Below, in pieces: positions 1,478 through 53,851 of a stretch of DNA of 64,000 nt. Within the stretch, counting starts at the first letter, position 1. Every line of letters starts with the position of its first letter. The stretch comes from Ectobius pallidus (lineage: Eukaryota > Arthropoda > Insecta > Blattodea > Ectobiidae). The notes beneath the pieces are model-generated. The model saw only the letters and a program-made list of their open reading frames with translations. It was not told where the DNA came from and did no database searches. The stretch lies in contig CAXKWD010000009.1 of assembly GCA_964059195.1 (NCBI GenBank), forward strand, positions 46,285,160 through 46,349,159, read 5' to 3'. The position numbers and the translations under genes were made by a program.

Positions 1478-2140
1478 GCTAACGAAAGTAACCAGGATGT
1501 GGACAATTCAGTTACGATCATGACGCAAACTGCTTAGCTATTATAAATAAAAAATAAAATAAATTAAATGTTTACTAGTTATTTTTCATACTTTAATTTT
1601 AGCAAAATTTTCTACACTGCCGTACCATTTTCTACAATCGAAAATTGTTATTTTAGTTATGATTTTTAAGGCTCATAAATCTCTATAAAGTGTCATTGCG
1701 CTTTATACTCGTATGTAAAAGGCAGCTTCTTCTTTTTGTAACGTTTTATGAGTTGAGATTACCTGTGTTTTAAAGAAGGCTGAGAAGTTCAATATAGCCT
1801 ACTTTTAATAACAGTAGAAGTTTGCTAAAAGTGATAAAAATGTTTGTAATTTTCCCTAATGATTTTAGATAGAGTCCTATCTGAAAGACAAGGAAGAATA
1901 ATTAATATTTGTGGGATTCAACTTCTTAACAAACATAAGGGTTTCTACGAATTCTAGAGTTCATGTTAAGTGTTACTATGCTAATCGCTTCCATTATCAA
2001 GATATTATCACAAGAGCTGTGATTAAATTAGGTTTCCAAGTCCAGTTAACTCTACAAGGCTCTCGGGTGCCACTACAAACGACAATATCCACTATTGCTC
2101 TCTCAACAGTCCATTTCCTAGCACAATACTACCCCAATGC
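1478..2140. other. AT-rich intergenic DNA, nothing recognised
   Basis: No supported gene, RNA or repeat. The start of a 219-residue open frame at 1911 lies here, but that frame runs on into a dispersed repeat and a SINE and is not supported as a gene. Confidence 0.5.
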
Positions 2141-2149
2141 TTCCAAGTT

Positions 2150-2400
2150 AACATGCAGTTTAGAATATGAGGCTAATCCTTTCCGTAGAAAGTGTAACAT
2201 TTACCTTCAATATATCATTTTCTATGCTATCATGTCAACTCTCTTTTCAAATGTAGGCCTAATAAACGGCTTTCTGTACAATGTGTACCTTTCCCTCCTG
2301 AAAATTCACCCTATTTCACGATTTACCCAAAAATTTCGTACAATCGCACTTCTAAACCTCTTCTATCTTTACCTGCGTAACTTATCCTGGGCATATTTCA
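2150..2400 (+). repeat. dispersed repeat, copy A (pairs with 4585-4810)
   Basis: This segment and 4585-4810 share long diverged matches in the same order and orientation, for example GCTAATCCTTTCCGTAGAAA followed by TGTAACATTTA, then CAACTCTCTTTT, and later TTTCTGTACAATGTGTACC against TTCTGTATAATTTCTATCC. They are two diverged copies of one repeat of unknown class. Confidence 0.6.
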
Positions 2401-2431
2401 GTTATATCTTAATTGACGCTCAAGTTAATTA

Positions 2432-2716
2432 TCTGGATACGCGGTTGTGTAATCAATTGAGTCTCTGCGCCACAAATCGGAAGGGCATGGGTTCGATTCC
2501 AGATGTGGTAATTGGGATTTTTCAACTGGCCGAATTCTTCTTCTTGGACTTGACTCAGCTTCGAACATAATTTAGTACCAGGAGCAATCCTGAGGATAAA
2601 GGAGACCTGTGCTTAGGGCTCACAACAAAATTCCCTCCGTATGCTCACTGACTATAATCCGGGACCCTCAAAAGAACTCTTAGAGCCTTCACGGCCCGTA
2701 AAAGGGATTAATTCAC
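2432..2716 (+). mobile_element. tRNA-derived SINE, family I
   Basis: It carries the tRNA-like head with a B box (GGTTCGATTCC, about 2492-2502). The body is shared with the SINE at 15314-15623: CTGGCCGAATTCTTCTTCTTGG, then GACTCAGCTTCGAAC, AGTACCAGGAGCAATCCTGAGG and a terminal CGGCCCGTAAAAGGGATTAATTC. It is more diverged than the 15.3-kb copy and I see no convincing target duplication. Confidence 0.7.
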
Positions 2717-2946
2717 CCACTTATAGTTTAGCTATTACATACATTATATATCGAAGGTATATTATACCATGATGTTCTTATTAATTGCAACAGAGACCAG
2801 GTCGTTTTCAGTGACTCGTTTCGTCCCTGCCATCTCAACCAAGAAATCACTGGTTCAGACCAGAATGAAGGTGACAGCGTGTACGCAAGATACCATCCTG
2901 GAAAATTTTTCGTTATTAGTAGTTAATCGCGAATATGATATTTGAA

Positions 2947-3690
2947 GCTCATTAACAATCGTACAACAATCATTTCAACAATAAGTTCAACAATGCTCCA
3001 ATAGTCCATCAATCACTTCAACAATAGTCCAACATTCATCAACAACCTTTTGATCAATCTTCCAATATTCGTTTCAACAATTCTGCAACAAACGTTTAAA
3101 CAATGGTTTCTATAATCTTTCAACGTCCGTTCAACATCGTTTGAACAACTGTCCAACATTCGTTTCAACAATCTTCCAACATTCGTTTCAACAATCGTCC
3201 AACATTCATTTCAACAATCGTCCAACATGCGTTTCAACAATTACCAACAATAGTTTTAACGATCGTTTCAACAATCATTCTACAACTGTTTTAAAAATCG
3301 TTTCAACAATCGTCCAATATTCGTTTAAACAATTATCTAACAATCGTTTAAACAATGGTTACAACGATCTTCCATTGTCCGTCCAACAATTGTCCAACAT
3401 TTGATTCAACAGACGTTCAACAATCGTTTTAATAATTGACCAACAATCGTTATAATATTTTCAAACAATGTTCCAGCAATAGTTTAAATAATTATCCAAC
3501 AATAATTTTAACAAACAATACAACAATGTTCCGATAATCGGACAAAAATCGTTTTACAATCGATTCAACAATCGTCCACATTTGTCAAACAATCGTATCG
3601 ATAATGATCCAATAACCGTTCAACAATCATTTAAAGAATCGTCCAACAATCGTTTCAAGAATCATCCAATAAACGCTTTAAATAACTTCA
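2947..3690 (+). repeat. 12-bp minisatellite (CAACAATCGTTT type)
   Basis: About 740 bp of imperfect tandem repeats with variants such as CAACAATCGTTT and CAACAATCGTCC. Open frames here read as Asn/Phe/Thr/Val-rich low-complexity peptide and are by-products of the repeat. A short piece of the same repeat, in opposite orientation, interrupts the satellite at 50692-50733. Confidence 0.85.
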
Positions 3691-39831: not shown

Positions 39832-41001
39832 GCACGAGGTTTATTTTGAATTGTAGCTAGCGTTATCCATTAGTGTTATTGAATTTGGAGGAATATTTGG
39901 AATAGAATTTTGATCAAATCATTTTTGAAGTGTTTGCATATAACTGTTCCTCGATATAAATTTGCAATATAACATGGAATTAGGGATAAAGCCAGATTCG
40001 GAGTACCAACTATTTATTTACTCCTAATATAAGTTATTACCCCACGTTTCGCTCAAATAAATATTATGGCGGTTAGAATTATGCAAGTCTTTGAGTTTCC
40101 GTAAGTATGTAAATCGTCTTACTCCCACATAAGGTCTTTCTATAAAAATGTATCTCTCCTGGTTATTTTTTTTGTACCGGAATTTTCATTGCTTTAATAC
40201 CTTACACATGTGTTTCAATTTTCGTATTGTCGTTTAGAAAAGCGTGATTTATTATTACGGTATCATTATAAATGTCACTGGAATAAAATAATGCAGTAAA
40301 TCCCAAAGTCAAATAAATGTGAATATTACAATTTACTTTCAAAAATATAAAATAAATATTTTACACCAACACCATTCACAGTAACAAGCCGCCACGTCTG
40401 CTTTTCTACACGACAATATGAGAGCTGAAGCACGTCTGTCAATTACTTAACGGCGAATTTCTTGTTTTTCTACATTTTTTCTATACGACCCTACCCTATC
40501 CTGAGGTCAGTGGAATAGTGGAGTGAGTAAATTTTGGCTACCTGCTGAATTTTGTGTCAGGATAAAGCAGACGTACTATAACTGTTATTTAAAATATGCT
40601 ACTCTATTCTAAATTCTTCAAAACTGACATTCTGTCTGATAGTACCCACTTTATGCATGTTAAAGTCTATGACATGAGTTCTTGGACCTATGTATCCGAA
40701 GTCTTTCTACCACTATCAAACTCCCAAAGGCGGAAGAAGCATAAATGTTCGTTGGAAGAGTCCTGTTTAAGAGCCGTACTGATAGGATTTTCATTGTTTA
40801 ATTCCATTAATAAAGAGTTCAAACAGTTCCTATCCTACATATTAGGCCTACTGCAACCCTCGTTAGGATTTATGGCTGCCAATCAAATATTGCAAACTAT
40901 GTTCTTATAGGTCTAGCGATGTGGAAGGTTCCTAGAGAGTGAGGCGCCTGGATTGTTAGAGATTCAGTCCAGAAGATGGAGAGGTTGTAGGCCTTTACAC
41001 A
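39832..41001. other. AT-rich intergenic DNA
   Basis: A 104-residue plus-strand frame at 40596-40910 is open without repeats, but I recognise no domain and see no supporting context, so I leave it uncalled. Confidence 0.4.
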
Positions 41002-41850
41002 TAGTCCAGTAGAATTAAAATCCAAATCGGAAATAATTGCTATACAAAAGGTTTTATTGTTTTAATGACTTCATTTGTTGCCCAATATGACTATCCTAGG
41101 TTTTCCCCCGCGGCGGAGTTGTGCATAAGTGGTGGGGGGTAGAAATGTGGCCCCCAAAGGGGTAGTTTTGTGGTTTTACGGTTATATCTCGTAAAGGACT
41201 CACGATATCGAAAACATGGTGGTATTAAAAGTTGTAGGGCATTACATTCTGCATTGAATGAGACTAAACGAATATTTTTTGGACGACCCGTTCCCATAAT
41301 ACTACTCATCAAAGTTGGACAAATTTTACATATTTATGAAAAATTTTCGTTTTAAGTTCTGCTTTTTGGTAATATCATGTAACTTAACCCATCTATCAAT
41401 AAAGTGGCCCATACAAAAGTAATAAAGGAATAAATTCTGCGTTCGATGAGATTAAAAGTGAATTTGTTGGACCACCCGTTTCCCTAAAGTTCTACATTTA
41501 GTCCAGTAGTGTAAAACCAAAAAAATAGACGAATCGGAAATCATGGCTACAAAAGGTTTTATTGTTTTAATGGCTTCATTTGTTGCCCAATATGACTATC
41601 CTAGGTTTTCCCCCTCGGCGGAGTTGTGCATAAGTGGTGGGGGTAAAAATGTGACCCCAAAAGGGGTAGTTTTGTGGTTTTACGGTTATATCGCGTAAAT
41701 GACTCACAATATCGAAAACATGGTCCTATTAAAAGTTGTAGGGCATTAAATTCTGCATTGAATGATACTAAACACATATTTTTGGACAACCCATTCCCAT
41801 AATACTGCTCATCAAATTTGGACAAATTTTACATATTTCTGAAAAACTTG
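41002..41850 (+). repeat. left compound arm of the 3.5-kb element
   Basis: Units at 41002-41498 and 41499-41850 are direct repeats of each other. The second stops after TTTTACATATTTCTGAAAAA, which is internal to the first. Open frames in the arm run across the repeat and are not genes. Confidence 0.85.
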
Positions 41851-42585
41851 TGTACCCGTGCTGCTCTGCAACACTTCTGAAAGAAGAAGAAGAAAATGTC
41901 TAGCCCCCATCACTTTTTTTTGTTAACTAAAAATATCTCTAAAAAAATTAAGAAAAGAAGAAGAAATTCTTGCACCCCAACACAATTTTTGTTTGTTTGT
42001 TATTATTAAAAATCTCTCTTTTTTTTTCCTTTTCAGTTTTATAAAAATTGATTGTCCGCGCATAACTTTCCTCTCACTCAACTGATTTGAGTGATCAATT
42101 CGGCATGTTAAAGAGCTGTTTCTGGTGAGTGGTCTTAGCCTATCACCGGCTGCCTGAGATATCGCCTCTCAAAGTTACAGAATTTCTGTATCTCGAAGAT
42201 GGTGGTAGTTGGGTGATTTCCAATGCCCGATAACATCTGTGCTTGAATACCATTCGTTAAAAAAAAATGAAGCAAATTGGTCAAGAATTTTCTAATTATT
42301 TTAATACGGTAATAGAGATGTGTAAACATAGTACTATAGTACTCCGTTGTACTAGTCTTGTGCTTAGTAAATATATAAAATATGAAAATTGTAGAAAAGA
42401 AACACTATTCTTCAAATCAATTAGTGATGATTTTATTTCATAACAAAAATTGTAGTTAAAAGTATGAAGATGAAAAGGGGAAAATGGTAGATACACAAAT
42501 TTTACAGACGTCGACGTTTCATTGTCGTTGGGCCACTCGGCTCCTCAAAATGTCTGTAATTTCCGATAAGGAGTCCGTCACCACA
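41851..42585. other. interior spacer of the 3.5-kb element
   Basis: AT-rich sequence with AAGAAGAAGAAG and T-rich tracts lies between the left arm and the end of the PIN-like ORF. It may contain the 3' UTR of the minus-strand gene (42300-42585). Confidence 0.4.
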
Positions 42586-43560
42586 TCACTCGACTCGTAA
42601 AAGTCTGTAATTGTCGTCGCCCCATATATGCAGTCCAGGTCTCGTCAACATCTGGTTCGTCAGTTGCATCTGGTTGGAGGGAGTTAGTGCAGGAGTTCCC
42701 CTTGGAGTTGGCACAAATCGATGAGCAATTGATTCCAGCCTCCGACACCCACAATCACGTGCACACCCCTTGTTGCACTTGCAGAAAATTGTGGAGAGAA
42801 AAGATTGTGGAGCTGGCTCCTTGGAGGTAGGAACGGGGTCAAGTCCAAACTTTGAAGCCTGCCATCCCCAGAGGAGCGGATCCATCTGGTGTCCTAACCA
42901 CATTTGTACTTGTAGGTAAGTTCTCAAGCAATGTTGGCGGGCTGCTTCGGATGTTGGTGGTAGGGATACCAGGTTAAATTTGGATTTCACGAGGGCTTTA
43001 GAAAATAGGTCAAATCGCAATTTATCTAAAGTATCTCCTGCCCTACCTTCGTAGAGGGTTGTTAAAAATTGTAGGCCAGCTTCGGCATTAGCTTCAGCTT
43101 GAGTGTCATGTTCGAAGAAAGGTTTGATTTCTTCGAGAAGACATATATTTTCGACCAACAGCTTGACCACCTTCTTCTTTGCCTTCCTGAAGAGTGCCGA
43201 AGTTGTGTCACATCCACTTATGGCGTGGAGAAGTATGAGTGGCCTTCTGATGTTGTCTGCCAGTTCGAAGCTGTTGGGACCAAATACTTTTGTTGGGATC
43301 GTTCCTCTTCCAGGTTTTGAGAAATATATGTTTGCTGATGGTGTGGCTAGGGCATTTAGCATGATGAGGAGGTGTGTATCTTCACAAACTACCACAACCT
43401 TCTCATGCTCCTGTGATACCTCAAGAGCCGTGGCAACAATCAGGTGGTCTGCGTCTTCATCAGCTTGCTTGACTGAGAAGCATTCACCTTCAAGTCTTTC
43501 AGTAAACAAGCTAATAAGACGTGCTTTATTTCTGTCGGAAAGTAATTGCTCCTGAGTCAT
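42586..43560 (-). CDS. C-terminal half of a PIN/FEN1-like protein with a Cys-rich tail
   Basis: From the first ATG (43560) the product has 324 residues. Counting from the in-frame TTG at 43572, residues 37-46 (ADEDADHLIV) and 62-72 (VCEDTHLLIML) match the D-A-D-T-L-I-V and D-T-D-x-L-x-L-L motifs, residues 118-125 (ISGCDTTS) the signature I-S-G-C-D-T-T-S, and residues 264-276 (CKCNKGCARDCGC) the Cys cluster of a multicopy invertebrate family with a PIN/FEN1-like fold that I know only as uncharacterised proteins. Family members are much longer at the N-terminus; here the frame stays open upstream (HTTHEVIFTELLVV) to the right arm at about 43640, so the N-terminal part is missing and this is probably a captured gene fragment. 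In the second acidic motif DTD has become DTH. The last residues may be shifted: another frame from about 42620 gives an acidic tail ending near 42509. Function unknown. Confidence 0.5.
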   Translation of the reverse strand: MTQEQLLSDRNKARLISLFTERLEGECFSVKQADEDADHLIVATALEVSQEHEKVVVVCEDTHLLIMLNALATPSANIYFSKPGRGTIPTKVFGPNSFELADNIRRPLILLHAISGCDTTSALFRKAKKKVVKLLVENICLLEEIKPFFEHDTQAEANAEAGLQFLTTLYEGRAGDTLDKLRFDLFSKALVKSKFNLVSLPPTSEAARQHCLRTYLQVQMWLGHQMDPLLWGWQASKFGLDPVPTSKEPAPQSFLSTIFCKCNKGCARDCGCRRLESIAHRFVPTPRGTPALTPSNQMQLTNQMLTRPGLHIWGDDNYRLLRVE

Positions 43561-43647
43561 GGTCACCACCAATAACTCGGTAAAGATGACCTCATGAGTA
43601 GTATGTCTTTTGCTTCGGCGGAGGGGCTCAGCAGATTTAATGATCTA

Positions 43648-44481
43648 ATTTGTCCAACTTTGATGAGCAGTGGTATGGGAATGGGTTGTCCAAAAAATAT
43701 GTGTTTAGTATCATTCAATGCAGAATTTAATGCCCTACAACTTTTAATAGGGCCATGTTTTCGATATCGCGAGTCTTTTACAAGATATAATCGTAAAACC
43801 GCAAAACTACATCTTTTGGGGTCACATTTTTACCCCCACCACTTAAGCACAACTCCGCGGGGGGGGGGACCTAGGATAGTCATATTGGGCAACAAATAAA
43901 ACCATTAAAACAATAAAACCTTTTGTAGCAATTATTTCCGATTCGTCTAATTTTTTGGTTTTACACTACTGGACTAAATGTAGAACTTTACGGAAACGGG
44001 TGGTCCAACAAATTCACTTCTAATCTCATCGAACGCAGAATTTATTCCTTTATTACTTTTGTATTGACCACTTTATTGATAGATGGGTTAAGTTAGATGA
44101 TATTACCAAAAAGCAGAACTTAAAACGAAAATTTTTCATAAATATGTAAAATTTGTCCAACTTTGATGAGCAGTATTATGGGAACGGGTTGTCCAAAAAA
44201 TATGTGTCTAGTCTCATTCAATGCAGAATTTAATGCCCTACAACTTTTAATACCACTATGTTTTCGATATCGTGAGTCATTTACGAGATAAAACCGTAAA
44301 ACCGCAAAACTACCCCTTTGGGGGGTCACATTTTTACCCCCACCACTTATGCACAACTCCGCCGAGAGGGAAAACCTAGGATAGTCATATTGGGCAACAA
44401 ATGAAGCCATTAAAACAATAAAACCTTTTGTAGCAATTATTTCCGATTCGTCTAATTTTTTGGTTTTACGCTACTGGACTA
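43648..44481 (-). repeat. right compound arm of the 3.5-kb element
   Basis: Inverted counterpart of 41002-41850: inner partial unit 43648-43976, outer full unit 43977-44481. A G10 run at 43858-43869 replaces the CCCC(G/T)CGG stretch of the other units. Confidence 0.85.
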
Positions 44482-44499
44482 ACATCTAACAGTATAAAA

Positions 44500-45174: not shown

Positions 45175-46692
45175 TGCCGGTGTAACGGGAAAACTTGACT
45201 TCGGGAGAATAAGACCCCCGACGTCAAAAAATCCCGGGAAAATATTACCGGGGGTCTATTTTTCCCGGGATATTAGGAAGCAGGGTAAAATCTTCCCGGG
45301 AAAAATTGACGCACAACAAACAAAACGAACTTCAAAGAACTAATCGCCGCAGGTGGGTACAATCTTCCCAGGAGGAATTGACTTCACACAGGGGGGTATT
45401 ATTATCCCGGGAAAATATTACCGGGGGTCTATTTTTCCCGGGATATTAGGAAGCAGGGTAAAATCTTCCCGGGAAAAATTGACGCACAACAAACAAAACG
45501 AACTTCAAAGAACTAATCGCCGCAGGTGGGTACAATCTTCCCAGGAGGAATTGACTTCACACAGGGGGGTATTATTATCCCGGGAAAATATTACCGGGGG
45601 TCTATTTTTCCCGGGATATTAGGAAGCAGGGTCAAATCTTCCCGGGAAAAATTGACGCACAACAAACAACACGAACTTCAAAGAACTAATCGCCGCAGGT
45701 GGGTACAATCTTCCCAGGAGGAATTGACTTCACACAGGGGGGTATTATTACCCCGGGAAAATAAGACACCGAAGGAATCCTTGAATATATCAAAGAACAA
45801 GTTGCCGCTGGGGGGTATAAATACCCCGGGAAAATAAGACTCTCCACACAAACATCAAAGAACTAGTAGCCGAAGGTGGGTACTATTTTCCCGGGAGGAA
45901 TTGACTTCACACAGGGGGCATAATTATCCCGGGAAAATAAGACCCCCCAAGGAATCCTTGAAGATATCAAAGAACAAGGTGCCGCTGGGGGGTGCTTTTA
46001 ACCCAAGAAGAATTGACTTCACACGGGGGGGGGGGGGTTAAAAATTCCCGGGAAAATAAGACTCCCCACACAAAAATCAAAGAACTAGTCGCCGCAGGTG
46101 GGTACTATTTTCCCAGGAGGAATTGACTTCACACAGGGGGGGGTATAATTAACCCGGGAAAATAAGACCCCCTAAGGAATCCTTGAAAATATCAATGAAC
46201 AAGCTGCCGCTGGGGGTGCTTTTAACTTAAGGAAGAATTGACTTCAAACAGGGGGGTAACAAATTCCCGGGAAAATAAGACTCCCCACGCAAAAATCAAA
46301 GAACTAGCCGCCGCAGGTGGGTACTATTTTCCCAGGAGGAATTGACTTCACACAGGGGGGTATAATTACCCCGTGAAAATTGTAACGGGAAAACTTGACT
46401 TCGGGAGAATAAGACCCCCGACGTCAAAAATTCCCGGGAAAATATTACCGGGGATCTATTTTTCCCGGGATATTAGGAAGCAGGGTAAAATCTCCCCGGG
46501 AAAAATTGACGCACAACAAACAACACGAACTTCAAAGAATTAATCGCCGCAGGTGGGTACAATCTTCCCAGGAGGAATTGACTTCACACAGGGGGGTATT
46601 ATTACCCCGGGAAAAAAAATATCCCCAAAGGAATCCTTGAAAATATCATATAGAACAAGGTGCCGCTGGGGGGGGGTGTTATTAACCCAAGA
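45175..46692 (+). repeat. satellite A, CCCGGG-rich (left block)
   Basis: Tandem repeats built from two related half-units of about 100-112 bp. One half contains ATCAAAGAACTAGTCGCCGC, AGGTGGGTACTATTTTCCC and AATTGACTTCACAC; the other AAGGAATCCTTGAAAATATC, AAGGTGCCGCTGGGGGGTG and the same AATTGACTTCACAC. Most units end in CCCGGGAAAATAAGAC. A variant of exactly 173 bp is tandem three times (starts 45244, 45417, 45590). A 1.2-kb higher-order period is visible: GTAACGGGAAAACTTGACTT at 45181 recurs at about 46382. The open frames of 60-100 residues here differ in frame from copy to copy and are not genes. Confidence 0.9.
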
Positions 46693-46872: not shown

Positions 46873-49758
46873 CTTATGACCATCCATGACCAAAGGGTGG
46901 TTTTCACTCCACTTCCAATCTAACACAATTAAACATTATTTTTTGACATATAAACATCATGTGGAGTGATATAAGATATTTGGCATGATTTACACCCCCA
47001 AGGGGGTTAATTTTATGAAGGGGTGGTTTTTCAAGGTCATCCACATTTTTGCAGAAATGAACAAATTAAGTCTATATAAATCATCTAGAGGGTAGTTTTC
47101 ACCCCCACAACCAATCTAACCCATTAAAAAATTATTTTACAACAATAAAAAATCGTACTGAGTGATTTTAACTATTTAACATGATTTACACCCCAAATGA
47201 TTTAGTTTTACATAGGGGTGGTTTTTCAAGGTCACCCAGGTTTTTACAGAAATGGACAACTTGAGCCACTGTAAATCGTCTAGAGGGTAGTTTTCACCCC
47301 CCACAACCAATCTAACCCATTAAAAATTTATTTTACAACAATAAAAAATCGTACTGAGTGATTTTAACTATTTGACATGATTTACACCCCCAAATGATTT
47401 AATTTTACATAGGGGTGGTTTTTCAAGGTCACCCAGGTTTTTACAGAAATGGACAACTTGAGCCACTGTAAATCGTCTAGAGGGTAGTTTTCACCCCCAC
47501 TTGCAATATATCCCATTTAAAAATATTTTTTCGACATATAAACATCTTACAGTGTAATATTAACTATCTGAATTGATTTCACCCCCAAATGATTTAATTT
47601 TACATAGGGGTGGTTTTTCAAGGTCACCCAGGTTTTTACAGATATCGACTTGAGCCCCTGTAAATTGTCTAGAGGGTAGTTTTCACCCCCACTTGCAATA
47701 TATGCCATTTAAAATTATTTTTTCGACATATAAACATCTTACAGAGTAATATTAACTATCAGAATTGATTTTCATCCCCAAATGATTTAATTTTACATAG
47801 GGGTGGTTTTTCAAGGTCACCCAGGTTTTTACAGAAATGGACAACTTGAGCCACTGTAAATCGTCTAGAGGGTAGTTTTCACCCCCACAACCAATCTAAC
47901 CCATTAAAAATTTATTTTACAACAATAAAAAATCGTACTGAGTGATTTTAACTATTTGACATGATTTACACCCCCAAATGATTTAATTTTACATAGGGGT
48001 GGTTTTTCAAGGTCACCCAGGTTTTTACAGAAATGGACAACTTGAGCAACTGTAAATCGTCTAGAGGGTAGTTTTCACCCCCGCAACCAATCTAACCCAT
48101 TAAAAATTTATTTTACAACAATAAAAAATCGTACTGAGTGATTTTAACTATTTGACATGATTTACACCCCCAAATGATTTAATTTTACATAGGGGTGGTT
48201 TTTCAAGGTCACCCAGGTTTTTACAGAAATGGACAACTTGAGCCACTGTAAATCGTCTAGAGGGTAGTTTTCACCCCCACTAGCAATATATCCCATTTAA
48301 AAATATTTTTTCGACATATAAACATCTTACAGTGTAATATTAACTATCTGAATTGATTTCACCCCCAAATGATTTAATTTTACATAGGGGTGGTTTTTCA
48401 AGGTCACCCAGGTTTTTACAGATATCGACAACTTGAGCCCCTGTAAATCGTCTAGAGGGTAGTTTTCACCCCCACTTGCAGTATATGCCATTTAAAATTA
48501 TTTTTTCGACATAAACATCTTACAGAGTAATATTAACTATCAGAATTGATTTTCACCCCCAAATGATTTAATTTTACATAGGGGTGGTTTTTCAAGGTCA
48601 CCCAGGTTTTTGCAAATATGGACAACTTGATCCACTGTATATCGTCCAGAGGGTAGTGTTCACCCCCACTTGCAATCTTAGCCATTAAAAATTGTTTTTT
48701 CGACATATAAACATCTTACTGAGTAATATTAACTATCTGAATTGATTTACACCCCCAAATGATATAATTTTACATAGGGGTGGCTTTTCAAGGTCACCCA
48801 GGTTTTTACAGATATCGACAACTTGAGCCACTGTAAATCGTCTAGAGGGTAGTTTTCACCCCCACTTGCGATATATGCCATTAAAAATTGTTTTTTCGAC
48901 ATATAACCATCTTATAGAGTAATATTAACTATCAGAATTGATTTTCACCCCCAAATGATTTAATTTTACATAGGGGTGGTTTTTCAAGGTCACCCAGGTT
49001 TTTGCAAATATGGACAACTTGATCCACTGTATATCGTCCAGAGGGTAGTGTTCACCCCCACTTGCAATCTTAGCCATTAAAAATTGTTTTTTCGACATAT
49101 AAACATCTTACTGAGTAATATTAACTATCTGAATTGATTTACACCCCCAAATGATATAATTTTACATAGGGGTGGCTTTTCAAGGTCACCCAGGTTTTTA
49201 CAGATATCGACAACTTGAGCCACTGTAAATCGTCTAGAGGGTAGTTTTCACCCCCACTTGCGATATATGCCATTAAAAATTGTTTTTTCGACATATAACC
49301 ATCTTATAGAGTAATATTAACTATCTGAAGTGATTTTCATTCCCTAATGATTTCATTTTACATAGTTTTTCAAGATCACCCACATTTCACAGATATGGAC
49401 AACTTGAGCCACTGTAAATCGTCTAGAGGGTAGTTTCACCCCACTTGCAATATATCCCGTTTAAAATTATTTGTTCGACATATAAACATCTTACAGAGTA
49501 ATATTAACTATCAGAATTGATTTTCATCCCCAAATGATTTAATTTTACATAGGGGTGGTTTTTGAAGGTCACCCAGGTTTTGCAGATATGGACAACTTTA
49601 GCCACAGTAAATCGTCTAGAGGGTAGTTTTCACCCCACTTGCAATTTTAGCCATTAAAGATTGTTTTTTCGACAGATAAACATCTCACTGAGTAATATTA
49701 AGTATCTAAATTGATTTGCACCTCCAAATGATTTAATTTTACATAGGGGTGGTTTTTC
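46873..49758 (+). repeat. satellite B, about 196-bp monomers with higher-order structure
   Basis: About 14 tandem monomers; the anchor GGTCACCCAGG recurs at about 47229, 47427, 47622, 47815, 48010, 48207, 48402, 48596, 48792, 48988 and 49184. Each monomer has GATTTAATTTTACATAGGGG, TGGTTTTTCAAGGTCACCC and CTAGAGGGTAGTTTTCACCC. Two monomer types alternate: A (CAACCAATCTAACCC) and B (CTTGCAATATATCCC and variants). The order A-A-B1-B2 occurs twice (about 47101-47885 and 47886-48666), followed by the dimer B3-B4 twice (about 48667-49442). The first and last monomers are the most diverged. Confidence 0.9.
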
Positions 49759-50805
49759 AAGGTACTATTTTCCCAGGAGTAATTGACTTCATACAGAGGA
49801 GTATAATTACCCCGGGAAAATAAGACACCCCTAGGATTCCTTAAAAATATCAAAGAACAAGGTGCCGCTGGGTGGTGCTTTTAACCCAAGAAGAATTGAC
49901 TTCACACAGGTGGGTAAAAAATTCCCGGGGAAATAAGACTCCCCACACAAACATCAAAGAACTAGTCGCCGCAGGTGGGTATTATTTTCCCTGGAGGAAT
50001 TGACTTCACACGGGGGGGGGGTATAATAACCCAGGGAAAATAAGACCCCCAAGGAATCCTTGAAAATATCAAAGAACTAGGTGCCGCAGGGGGGTGCTTT
50101 TAACCCAAGAATTGACCTCACACGGGGGGGTAGGCTATCCACATAAAAATTAAAGAACTAGTCGCCGCAGGTGGGTTATTTTCCCAGGAGGAATTGACTT
50201 CACACAGGGGGGTATAATTATACCGGGGAAATAAGCCCCCCCCAAGTAATCCTTGAGAATATCAAAGAACAAGTTGCCGCTGGGGGTGCTTTTAACCCAA
50301 AGAAGAATTGACTTCACAGAGGGGGTAAAAAATTCCCGCGAAAATAAGACACTCCACACAAAAATTAAAGAACTAGTCGCCGCTGGTGGGTACTATTTTC
50401 CCAAGGAGGAATTGACTTTCACACAGGGGGGGTATAATTACCCCGGAAAATAAGAACCCCAAGGAATCCTTGAAAATATCAGAGAACAAGTGCCGCTAGG
50501 TGGTGCTTTTAACCCAAGGTTGAATTGACTTCCCACACGGGGGGGGGTAAAAATTCCCGGGAAAATAAGAGTTCCCACACAAAAATCAAAGAACTAATTG
50601 CCGCAGGTGGGTACTATTTTCCCAGGAGGAATTGACTTCACACAGGGGGCATAATTACCCCGGGAAAATAAGACTCCCCAAGGAATGCTGACAATTGTTG
50701 AAACATTATTGAAAAATTGTTGGACGTTTCGCTGGGGATGCTTTTAACCCAAGAAGAATTGACGGGGGTATAAACATCCCGTGAAAATAAGACTCCCCAC
50801 ACAAA
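49759..50805 (+). repeat. satellite A, CCCGGG-rich (right block)
   Basis: The same repeat as 45175-46692, in the same orientation, resuming in mid-unit at GGTACTATTTTCCCAGG. At 50692-50733 a unit is interrupted by ACAATTGTTGAAACATTATT and further TTGTTG repeats that resemble the 12-bp minisatellite of 2947-3690 in reverse. Confidence 0.9.
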
Positions 50806-51372: not shown

Positions 51373-52683
51373 CTAAGTATTAGAGCAAACCATTGTTACA
51401 ATCATGAAATGATTATTTTTATTTTGCAAGTATAGTCCCCGTTGTCCTGCCCTAACTTTCTTTGGAATTTTTCCATTATGGCTAAACAACTGCCAATCAC
51501 CACTGAAAAATACGTAAATGTCAGAATTTAACACCAATGCTGTGCTGTAGATTTCCACATCTGTTGCCCATGTATTTTCTACCATCATTAAACTCTTTTC
51601 AAGATATGATTTTGCGCCTCTAACATATTTATTTACTCTTTCATCCTTTTCCATGAATTCCACTATCTTCTTCCGTAAAGTATTGTGAAACTGTTGATCC
51701 CCCGTTATATATAGAGAAATGCAGCGGAAGAAGCAATTTCCATCGCCCAGAACATTCTCGAACTGGGACGGATGCTTCAAGGGCACTTGCTGAGCAATGC
51801 ATCCTCTGCGGCAAATCAAATTCAATTGCAGAGCACGGCACTGTTTCTCCTGCCAAACGAAGTCCACCGGCAAGAAATATCGCTTCTCGTTCTTCGATAT
51901 ATAAGTGGGCGTTTCGTACTTTGATTCGTCTGACTCAAAATCTGTTATTTCACCTTCATGTTTACTAATGTGTGTCTCCTCACGTTTGCAATCGCCTTCG
52001 TTAATCCTAGATGTAGAGTTCATTTTCTGATCTTCAATATTTTCAATGTCCTGTTCTTTCAATGTAGGTAATCTCTCTTGGAAGAACTTCAAGTTTTTGA
52101 TATTATGTTTTCTCTTCAGCTCTTTTCCAGTTTTTGTTGACTTTAAAGAAACCAGATTGTTGGAATGTATTCTTGATATAAAGTATGGTCCAGTCCATGG
52201 GAGTGAGGACCATCCACCTTTACGGTCACAGCGTCTTAAGTTCTTGACTAATACTTTTTGTCCAGCAAGAAATTTACCAGAAGGAGAGTGCCTACGGTTA
52301 TAATCATTTTTCTGCTTGTCCTGGGCTTTCGAAATGTTTTCTTTTATATCTTTTTGTATGGCTTCTCTCATATTTACTAGAGACTGAAGAATATTATCAA
52401 AATTCTTTTTGTCGAGAGGAAGGTCCTTGGGATGTAAGTTACTCTCAGCTTCTGTATCCAGTGGCATTTCTTGATGTTCATGGAGGTTTTCATAATTTTC
52501 TTGCATCGCATCTGCTTCCGCTTCGATGCCTGCTTCAATTGCTGTACTAACATCTATTGGAAGAACAGGTTCTCTCTGGTACAGAATGTAAAAGGGAGAA
52601 TATTTCGTTGATGAGTGCACCGACGTACGATGAGCAAACAAAACACCGTGCAAAATATCTGGCCACCTTTGGACGTCCTCCAA
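51373..52683 (-). CDS. integrase C-terminus, GPY/F module and OTU domain
   Basis: The 436-residue frame begins with the rest of the integrase (EDVQRWPDILHGVLFAHRTS, then STKYSPFYILYQREPVLPI). The chromodomain-like GPY/F module is at residues 141-205 (GQKVLVKN ... WTGPYFISRI). A hydrophilic linker rich in Glu and Lys follows (210-265). Residues 308-432 form an OTU domain: D314 and C317 in LGDGNCFFRCIS, the W-A-T-D-V-E-I motif at 372-378, and H425 in NNHFMIV. OTU domains are deubiquitinating-type cysteine proteases; in transposons their role is unproven. The catalytic Asp, Cys and His are all present, which suggests recent activity. Confidence 0.75.
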   Translation of the reverse strand: MEDVQRWPDILHGVLFAHRTSVHSSTKYSPFYILYQREPVLPIDVSTAIEAGIEAEADAMQENYENLHEHQEMPLDTEAESNLHPKDLPLDKKNFDNILQSLVNMREAIQKDIKENISKAQDKQKNDYNRRHSPSGKFLAGQKVLVKNLRRCDRKGGWSSLPWTGPYFISRIHSNNLVSLKSTKTGKELKRKHNIKNLKFFQERLPTLKEQDIENIEDQKMNSTSRINEGDCKREETHISKHEGEITDFESDESKYETPTYISKNEKRYFLPVDFVWQEKQCRALQLNLICRRGCIAQQVPLKHPSQFENVLGDGNCFFRCISLYITGDQQFHNTLRKKIVEFMEKDERVNKYVRGAKSYLEKSLMMVENTWATDVEIYSTALVLNSDIYVFFSGDWQLFSHNGKIPKKVRAGQRGLYLQNKNNHFMIVTMVCSNT

Positions 52684-53851
52684 TAAAACTTTTTTTTAAA
52701 TGTCTTTATTGTTCGATTTTGTCGTTCAACCAATCCATTTGATTGAGGATGGTAAGCTGACGTAATTCTTTGCTTTACCCCCGTTAATTTGTGTAGCACA
52801 CTGCATACTGAATTTACGAATTCTTTCCCCTGGTCATTGATTTGAATGTCTGGACAACCATGACGACATATTATATCTTCATACAAGAATCGAGTCAATG
52901 TTTCGGCTCGTTTATCCTTTAAAGCTCTAGCTTCAGACCATTTACTGAAATAATCTACAGCAATGACAGCATATTTTAAGCCATTTACTTCTGGTAATTG
53001 AATCAGGTCTACGCCAATTTGTTTCATGACCTGTGCAGGTACCGTGATTGGCTGAAGTTGAGGAGTGACATGCAATGTGGCAGGATTAATTTTCTGACAT
53101 TTTTCACATGTTTTTAGGTAGCTTCGCAGATCAAGGGATATTGAAGGCCAGTAGAACCTCTTTCTCAGAATAGCTTCACATGAGTTTCGACCTCGATGGC
53201 TCGACAGGGCAGCTGCTTCATAATTTGTGTCTGCACCCTCATGTATCATCTTCAAAATCTGTTCCCGTTTTCGCAATTCGAAGACAACTTCTCGTTCATA
53301 AGTTGATGTACTGGTAGTCTTCTTATAATACATCTTACCGCCACGAAGAAAGAATCGCTTACACTGCCTTCTAAAGTTGGATTTTTCATTTCTGGTTGAC
53401 AGATGAATCGGGTAACCTTTTCCATTCAAATACTTGTAGACCCATTGAAGATTAATGGAACTTCTTGAGTTACCTTCGACACGAACACCTACGAAAAGAG
53501 AAAATATTGTCGTGAATATAGGAGGAATAAAAGCATTTCTGTTTTAACAAACATATAAGAGTCATATAATAAGTAAATGATAGGTTATGATCGATTTTAA
53601 GGCGAAAAACACATCGGCTCATATCCATTTTCCCTTCCCCAGACAAGTAAACAGATTTCCAAGAAGACCTAATTTCCATAAATATTTAACCAGTTAACCC
53701 AACAAATGAAAAAATAAAGAAGTGACATACTTCACTAAATAAGAGTGTGTACTTACTTACCTTCTCTCTCGTCTTGTACACCATCTTTCCAGTGAAGGAA
53801 AGCATCTTCAGCATGTGATTGCTTCTTATCGTCGTCTTCCCCATGCGCATC
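51373..53851 (-). CDS. Ginger-type integrase-OTU protein gene, spliced, with a frameshift
   Basis: Minus-strand gene with exons 53851-53761 and 53488-51373, joined by a 272-bp intron (53760-53489) with a GTAAGT donor and a CTTTTCGTAG acceptor; the codon phases fit. The second exon encodes an H2C2 zinc finger, a DDE integrase core, a GPY/F module and an OTU-type cysteine protease domain. Gypsy-like integrases that stand alone, contain introns and carry an OTU domain are the mark of Ginger1 DNA transposons. No reverse transcriptase, RNase H or protease region flanks it, which argues against a gypsy retrotransposon. The reading frame shifts at an A8 tract (52690-52697). First coding exon possibly at 61643-61711. 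Terminal inverted repeats not identified. Confidence 0.75.
52690..53488 (-). CDS. integrase part: H2C2 zinc finger and DDE core
   Basis: Numbering from the in-frame Met at 53429: the zinc-finger ligands are H63, H78, C108 and C111 (HEG ... SSHRG ... CEKCQ). The catalytic triad is D141 (GVDL), D199 (INDQG) and E235 (LVERQN), a D,D-35-E arrangement, with SAYHPQSNGLVER typical of gypsy/Ginger integrases. Upstream, LQWVYKYLNGKGYPIHLS and FFLRGGKMYYKK match the start region of Ginger1-type proteins. All catalytic residues are present. The frame runs into the A8 tract at 52690-52697; beyond it this frame is nonsense, and the integrase continues in another frame. Confidence 0.75.
53761..53851 (-). 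CDS. upstream exon of the integrase-OTU gene
   Basis: 91 bp between a TTTCTGAATAG acceptor and a GTAAGTAAGT donor. It encodes DAHGEDDDKKQSHAEDAFLH and WKDGVQDERE, an acidic, hydrophilic stretch. It enters in phase 0 and leaves in phase 1, and the next exon continues in the matching phase. Too short for the open-frame search; supported by splice sites and phase only. Confidence 0.55.

Follow-up and report, generated by a model that had tools for sequence, protein, structure and literature searches.

A probable non-autonomous derivative of an AcademX-like DNA transposon with mirrored double arms in the genome of Ectobius pallidus

Organization of the element and its arms

The window, that is, the whole stretch of 64,000 nucleotides analysed here, comes from Ectobius pallidus (assembly GCA_964059195.1, contig CAXKWD010000009.1, positions 46,285,160 to 46,349,159). 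It contains a discrete element of 3480 bp (41002-44481), whose tips are TAGTCCAGTAG on the left and CTACTGGACTA on the right. The ACA copies that flank it on both sides confirm the ends proposed by the sequence-only reading. The following features were recognized:

40999-41001, no strand: left copy of the target site duplication, ACA (3 bp)
41002-41498, plus strand: outer unit of the left arm, A-type tip TAGTCCAGTAGAATTAAAATCC
41499-41849, plus strand: inner unit of the left arm, a truncated direct copy that opens with its own tip TAGTCCAGTAG
41944-42480, minus strand: 537-bp non-coding segment from the gene fragment to the left arm, present in locus L030 and absent from L031 and L029
42481-43646, minus strand: remnant of the element's putative own nuclease gene (FEN1/XPG-like part, CXC tail and 3' side of the gene), including the open reading frame 42586-43572
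43643-43650, minus strand: putative deletion junction where the arm adjoins the gene fragment; about 4 bp here resemble neither side
43647-43976, minus strand: inner unit of the right arm, a truncated copy with its own tip
43977-44481, minus strand: outer unit of the right arm, B-type tip TAGTCCAGTAGCGTAAAACC
44482-44484, no strand: right copy of the target site duplication, ACA

In each arm, the outer unit (about 500 bp) is followed inward by a shorter copy of about 330-350 bp that starts with a complete tip of its own and is truncated on the inner side. The longest inverted match between the arms covers 575 nt at 94% identity (41043-41617 and 43858-44432), and the mirror identity across long matches is 88-95%. 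Within each arm, the direct copies are spaced by about 503-505 bp and are 90-98% identical. The arms are thus compound and mirrored, as had been noticed earlier, and this is the unusual feature of the element. Judging from the sequence, chance is no serious explanation for arm matches of such length. The A-type (left) and B-type (right) outer tips diverge after their first 11 bases, and this difference was used as a marker of the two ends.

The sole long open reading frame (42586-43572, minus strand, 328 residues) encodes the C-terminal half of a nuclease that resembles FEN1/XPG and ends in a CXC (Cys) tail. The motifs D-A-D-x-L-I-V and I-S-G-C-D-T-T-S and the Cys cluster were all found, and the lack of a transposase motif in the frame was confirmed. 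The frame does stay open upstream as far as the arm: it has 352 codons and reaches 43644, 3 bases from the inner end of the right arm (43647). The Pfam search with this frame returned only PIN_4 and NYN_YacP, both below the cut-offs. The protein similarity begins at residue 256 of the 635-codon frame of a fuller copy (L029), and the first 255 of the 635 residues are missing from the window element. No complete transposase gene was found in any of the six frames of the element, and the only recognisable coding part is the C-terminal part of the nuclease. The window copy is non-autonomous, and the earlier description of its frame as a C-terminal FEN1/PIN-fold fragment in such an element was correct. 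For the 537-bp segment, the comparison of L030, L031, and L029 favours neither an insertion here nor a deletion elsewhere.

Other repeats were observed in the same window. A satellite array (46894-49763; 14.7 copies of a 196-bp unit) is flanked on both sides by related tandem units rich in CCCGGGAAAA (45231-46380 and 50064-50686). At 51373-53429 on the minus strand, an LTR-type integrase (Integrase_H2C2, rve) is followed by an overlapping 436-codon frame that terminates in an OTU-like cysteine protease domain.

Copies in the host genome

The search of the genome (2.12 Gb, 410 contigs) yielded 251 occurrences of the A-type left outer tip at up to 2 mismatches and none of the reversed control pattern. 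The unit does not occur as scattered single copies with differing breakpoints, the observation that had been named as evidence against a real element: a second, shorter copy adjoins all 40 scored unit matches (40 scored of 554 first-look candidates). Among 20 loci, chosen as the best unit matches and not as a random sample, 16 are collinear with the window element along 3.4-3.5 kb. The layout is modified at the other four by internal deletions (L016, L017), a long insertion (L019), or the loss of part of the right outer unit (L025).

A 3-bp target duplication was present in 24 of the 27 complete copies examined and missing in L009, L023, and L025; the expected copies with identical outer ends and a duplication of constant length were therefore found. 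Automated pairing of tips gave a 3-bp duplication in 22 of 26 complete pairs, and the outer-tip duplications of L011 (TGT/TGT) and L030 (TAC/TAC) bring the count to 24 of 27. L029, L033, and L034, which are incomplete in the stretches examined, were left out.

The nuclease frame gave at least 124 matches in the genome (from 122 scored of 8159 first-look candidates). Of 100 listed A tips (of the 251), 66 have a gene match within 15 kb among the matches listed, and 34 have none. A sample of six of these 34 comprised four complete elements, one running past the end of the stretch, and one consisting of the arm only. As five of the six carry the nuclease fragment, the unmatched tips may largely reflect the extent of the matches listed. 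Beyond the arm, L033 consists of other DNA, in which the long frame of L031 has a single weak match (tblastn 8.9e-7, 23% identity).

The copies differ from their majority sequence by about 1%, compared with about 6% between the arms; therefore, the double-arm layout predates the amplification. The low divergence of the copies suggests that the window-type element spread recently.

Longer relatives and the source of the nuclease gene

One complete relative, L031, is 6500 bp long, shares the tips of the window element, and is flanked by a 3-bp target duplication. Its long frames encode a transposase-like protein that runs in one open frame into a FEN1/XPG-like nuclease with the CXC tail. At E ≤ 0.001, 352 proteins match this transposase-nuclease frame, many of the 120 homologues listed matching over the whole length, and sequence matches place fused transposase-nuclease proteins in several insects. 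Among the 120, the TFDQ-type motif occurs in 89, VFDGY in 96, and the CXC pattern in 16; all seven strict motifs chosen are present together in three. No Pfam family was assigned to the 577-residue transposase part of L031 at E ≤ 1. An RNase H-like DDE/D transposase is expected of AcademX; among the solved structures compared, the model of the L031 transposase is closest to the transposases of P and hAT (Hermes).

Two side observations concern this material. One homologue of the fusion, P0075, has the rust fungus Austropuccinia psidii as its recorded source, which could reflect contamination or horizontal transfer; the other named matches are mainly arthropod-like. On the reverse complement of L029 (about 1582-3384), upstream of the truncated element, lies an open frame of 601 codons with a CCHC-like cluster and a coiled-coil-like part, which by eye resembles a retroelement gag.

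Alternative explanations

A first alternative, which takes up the gene capture proposed by the sequence-only reading, is that a non-autonomous element acquired part of a FEN1-like host gene, enclosed by its palindromic arms, in Pack-MULE style. The 5' truncation of the fragment exactly at the arm and the lack of a transposase motif in the window element would be expected of such a capture. However, between the same tips L031 carries the nuclease in one open frame with a transposase-like end, and for this reason the nuclease appears to be the element's own gene rather than a host acquisition. The protein matches to the L031 frame, many of them whole-length, the fusions in several insects, and the large number of nuclease copies in the genome (at least 124 matches) also count against capture, which we consider very improbable. 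Of the description as a gene-capturing non-autonomous element, only the second half has survived. Still less credible is the accidental meeting of independent 500-bp insertions that happen to face each other. The unit is indeed itself repeated, and its inner copies have complete tips; yet the whole layout is common to 16 of the 20 loci, the 3-bp duplication lies at the outer tips in 24 of the 27 complete copies, and the arms diverged before the copies multiplied.

A third explanation keeps the same anatomy and places it in a DDE-plus-nuclease lineage of DNA transposons outside Academ. The structural proximity of the transposase model to P and hAT favours it, but P and hAT transposons make 8-bp target duplications, and those found here are of 3 bp. 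AcademX elements are stated to have 3- or 4-bp and AcademH elements 9- or 10-bp duplications, a difference connected there with the encoded nuclease and helicase, respectively (PMC10045372). We give this placement a small chance. The reading that we prefer, with good though not complete confidence, is that the window element derives by internal deletion from an AcademX-like family of DNA transposons and is non-autonomous. The evidence suggests a new family of an already known kind and speaks against a new kind of element holding a captured host gene.

State of the open reading frame

The 17 full copies (the window element plus those at 16 loci) share 98.3-99.5% identity with their majority sequence, in which the longest frame has 206 codons. 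A frame of more than 300 codons is retained in three of them (window, L014, L028), and in 10 of the 17 the frame is broken near residues 407-413 of the fuller protein. For 19 window-type copies compared in all pairs, mean dN divided by mean dS is 0.84, which is near neutral; the comparison with L029 gave 0.46-1.01, and both tests are weak owing to few changes per pair. We read the window-type frame as decaying. Maintenance by selection was considered and rejected on the near-neutral ratio from this weak test; as a counterpoint, at least 18 of the 124 genome matches listed cover the 328-residue frame without a stop (from residue 1 or 2 to 328), and therefore part of the family keeps the frame.

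Origin of the mirrored double arms

A phylogenetic tree was constructed for 48 unit sequences from 13 chosen elements (the window, seven of the 16 full loci, L029, L030, L031, L035, and L036). It separated 23 outer units from 25 others, namely 23 inner units and the two outer units of L035, with support of 99/94. The position of the L035 outer units among the inner ones does not fit a simple outer/inner rule. The upstream inner units clustered with the downstream inner units of L029, L030, L031, and L035 (93/86, under the starred level of the tool), and the downstream inner units of the window type formed a separate set (97/95). Because of the former grouping, which has moderate support, the extra upstream unit is probably an inverted copy of the downstream inner unit rather than a duplicated upstream outer unit. 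With the same moderate support, the tree suggests that the double mirrored arm was built secondarily and was then amplified.

At the junction of arm and gene, some 4 bp correspond to neither side, and no clear homology is seen. The pattern recurs with other breakpoints in a second type of derivative (L034, L035), whose downstream end, together with non-coding DNA past the arm, is present in inverted form at both ends. Both observations would fit gap repair in which the template is switched from one inverted arm to the other and the ends are then joined. Internal deletion probably removed the transposase and the first part of the nuclease gene and left the tips in place. During repair after excision, the inner unit of the downstream arm may have been copied in inverted orientation by template switching between the homologous inverted arms. 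End joining of the copied arm to the nuclease gene would then have produced both the mirrored double arm and the 5'-truncated gene. The resulting element could be mobilised in trans by the transposase of longer copies that recognises the TAGTCCAGTAG tips.

Of the 66 listed tips with a gene match, 65 have the gene directed towards the A tip; at the remaining one, L031, it faces the opposite way. Thus both orientations of the interior relative to the A tip are present, and recombination of one arm with the other, by inverting the interior, would be expected to yield two such isomers. A bolder proposal, which we hold as a speculation and consider less probable than not, is that the doubled arms are functional and not debris. 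Inverted copying would have created a symmetric substrate with four tips that transposes better than single-arm forms, and recombination between the arms would flip the interior between the two isomers. Better transposition would explain the high number of this derivative, and functional doubled arms would be, to our knowledge, the first case outside plant MULEs.

Comparison with known transposons

What appeared to be a gene-capturing element can now be followed as a series of deletions, for which a candidate parent type is available. Insect proteins filed as “Tesmin/TSO1-like CXC domain-containing” are linked to the transposase-nuclease fusion, which should help to stop the annotation of such proteins as host genes. 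The family also makes it possible to ask, in an animal, whether transposition is raised by tandem terminal repeats.

The nuclease of AcademX is of the XPG type. In the present family, a nuclease lies beside the transposase within one element, and the 3-bp target duplication is among the lengths described for AcademX; this likeness by description points to the name AcademX-like. The earlier suggestion of a poorly described superfamily is mostly answered by this fit, and the unusual arms remain. The complete copy is 6.5 kb long, compared with a mean of 5565 bp given for curated Academ elements in a mollusc study (PMC10294476). The window copy departs from AcademX in having lost the transposase by deletion and in carrying a tandem second unit in each arm. 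Within a limited literature search, the accessible portions of the sources reported no tandem terminal repeats in Academ and no transposon with an XPG or flap endonuclease like this one.

MULE target duplications are 9-11 bp long, and the 3 bp found here differ from the duplication of about 9 bp expected for that group. The arms nevertheless recall plant MULEs, among which elements with tandem (multiple) terminal inverted repeats at both ends have been amplified, one family containing a gene fragment (PMC3310237). Those doubled at both ends out-amplified those with one extra repeat, and elevated transposition competency was suggested (PMC3310237). Duplicated terminal repeats at both ends, amplification, and an internal gene fragment are thus shared; in plant MULEs, however, the transposase is different and the fragment was acquired, whereas here it appears to be the element's own gene. 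Internal-deletion derivatives of the P element and of Ac/Ds keep their ends, lose the transposase by incomplete gap repair, and are mobilised in trans. The window element resembles them in its kept ends and deleted transposase, and differs in that its repair seems to have included inverted copying of the opposite arm.
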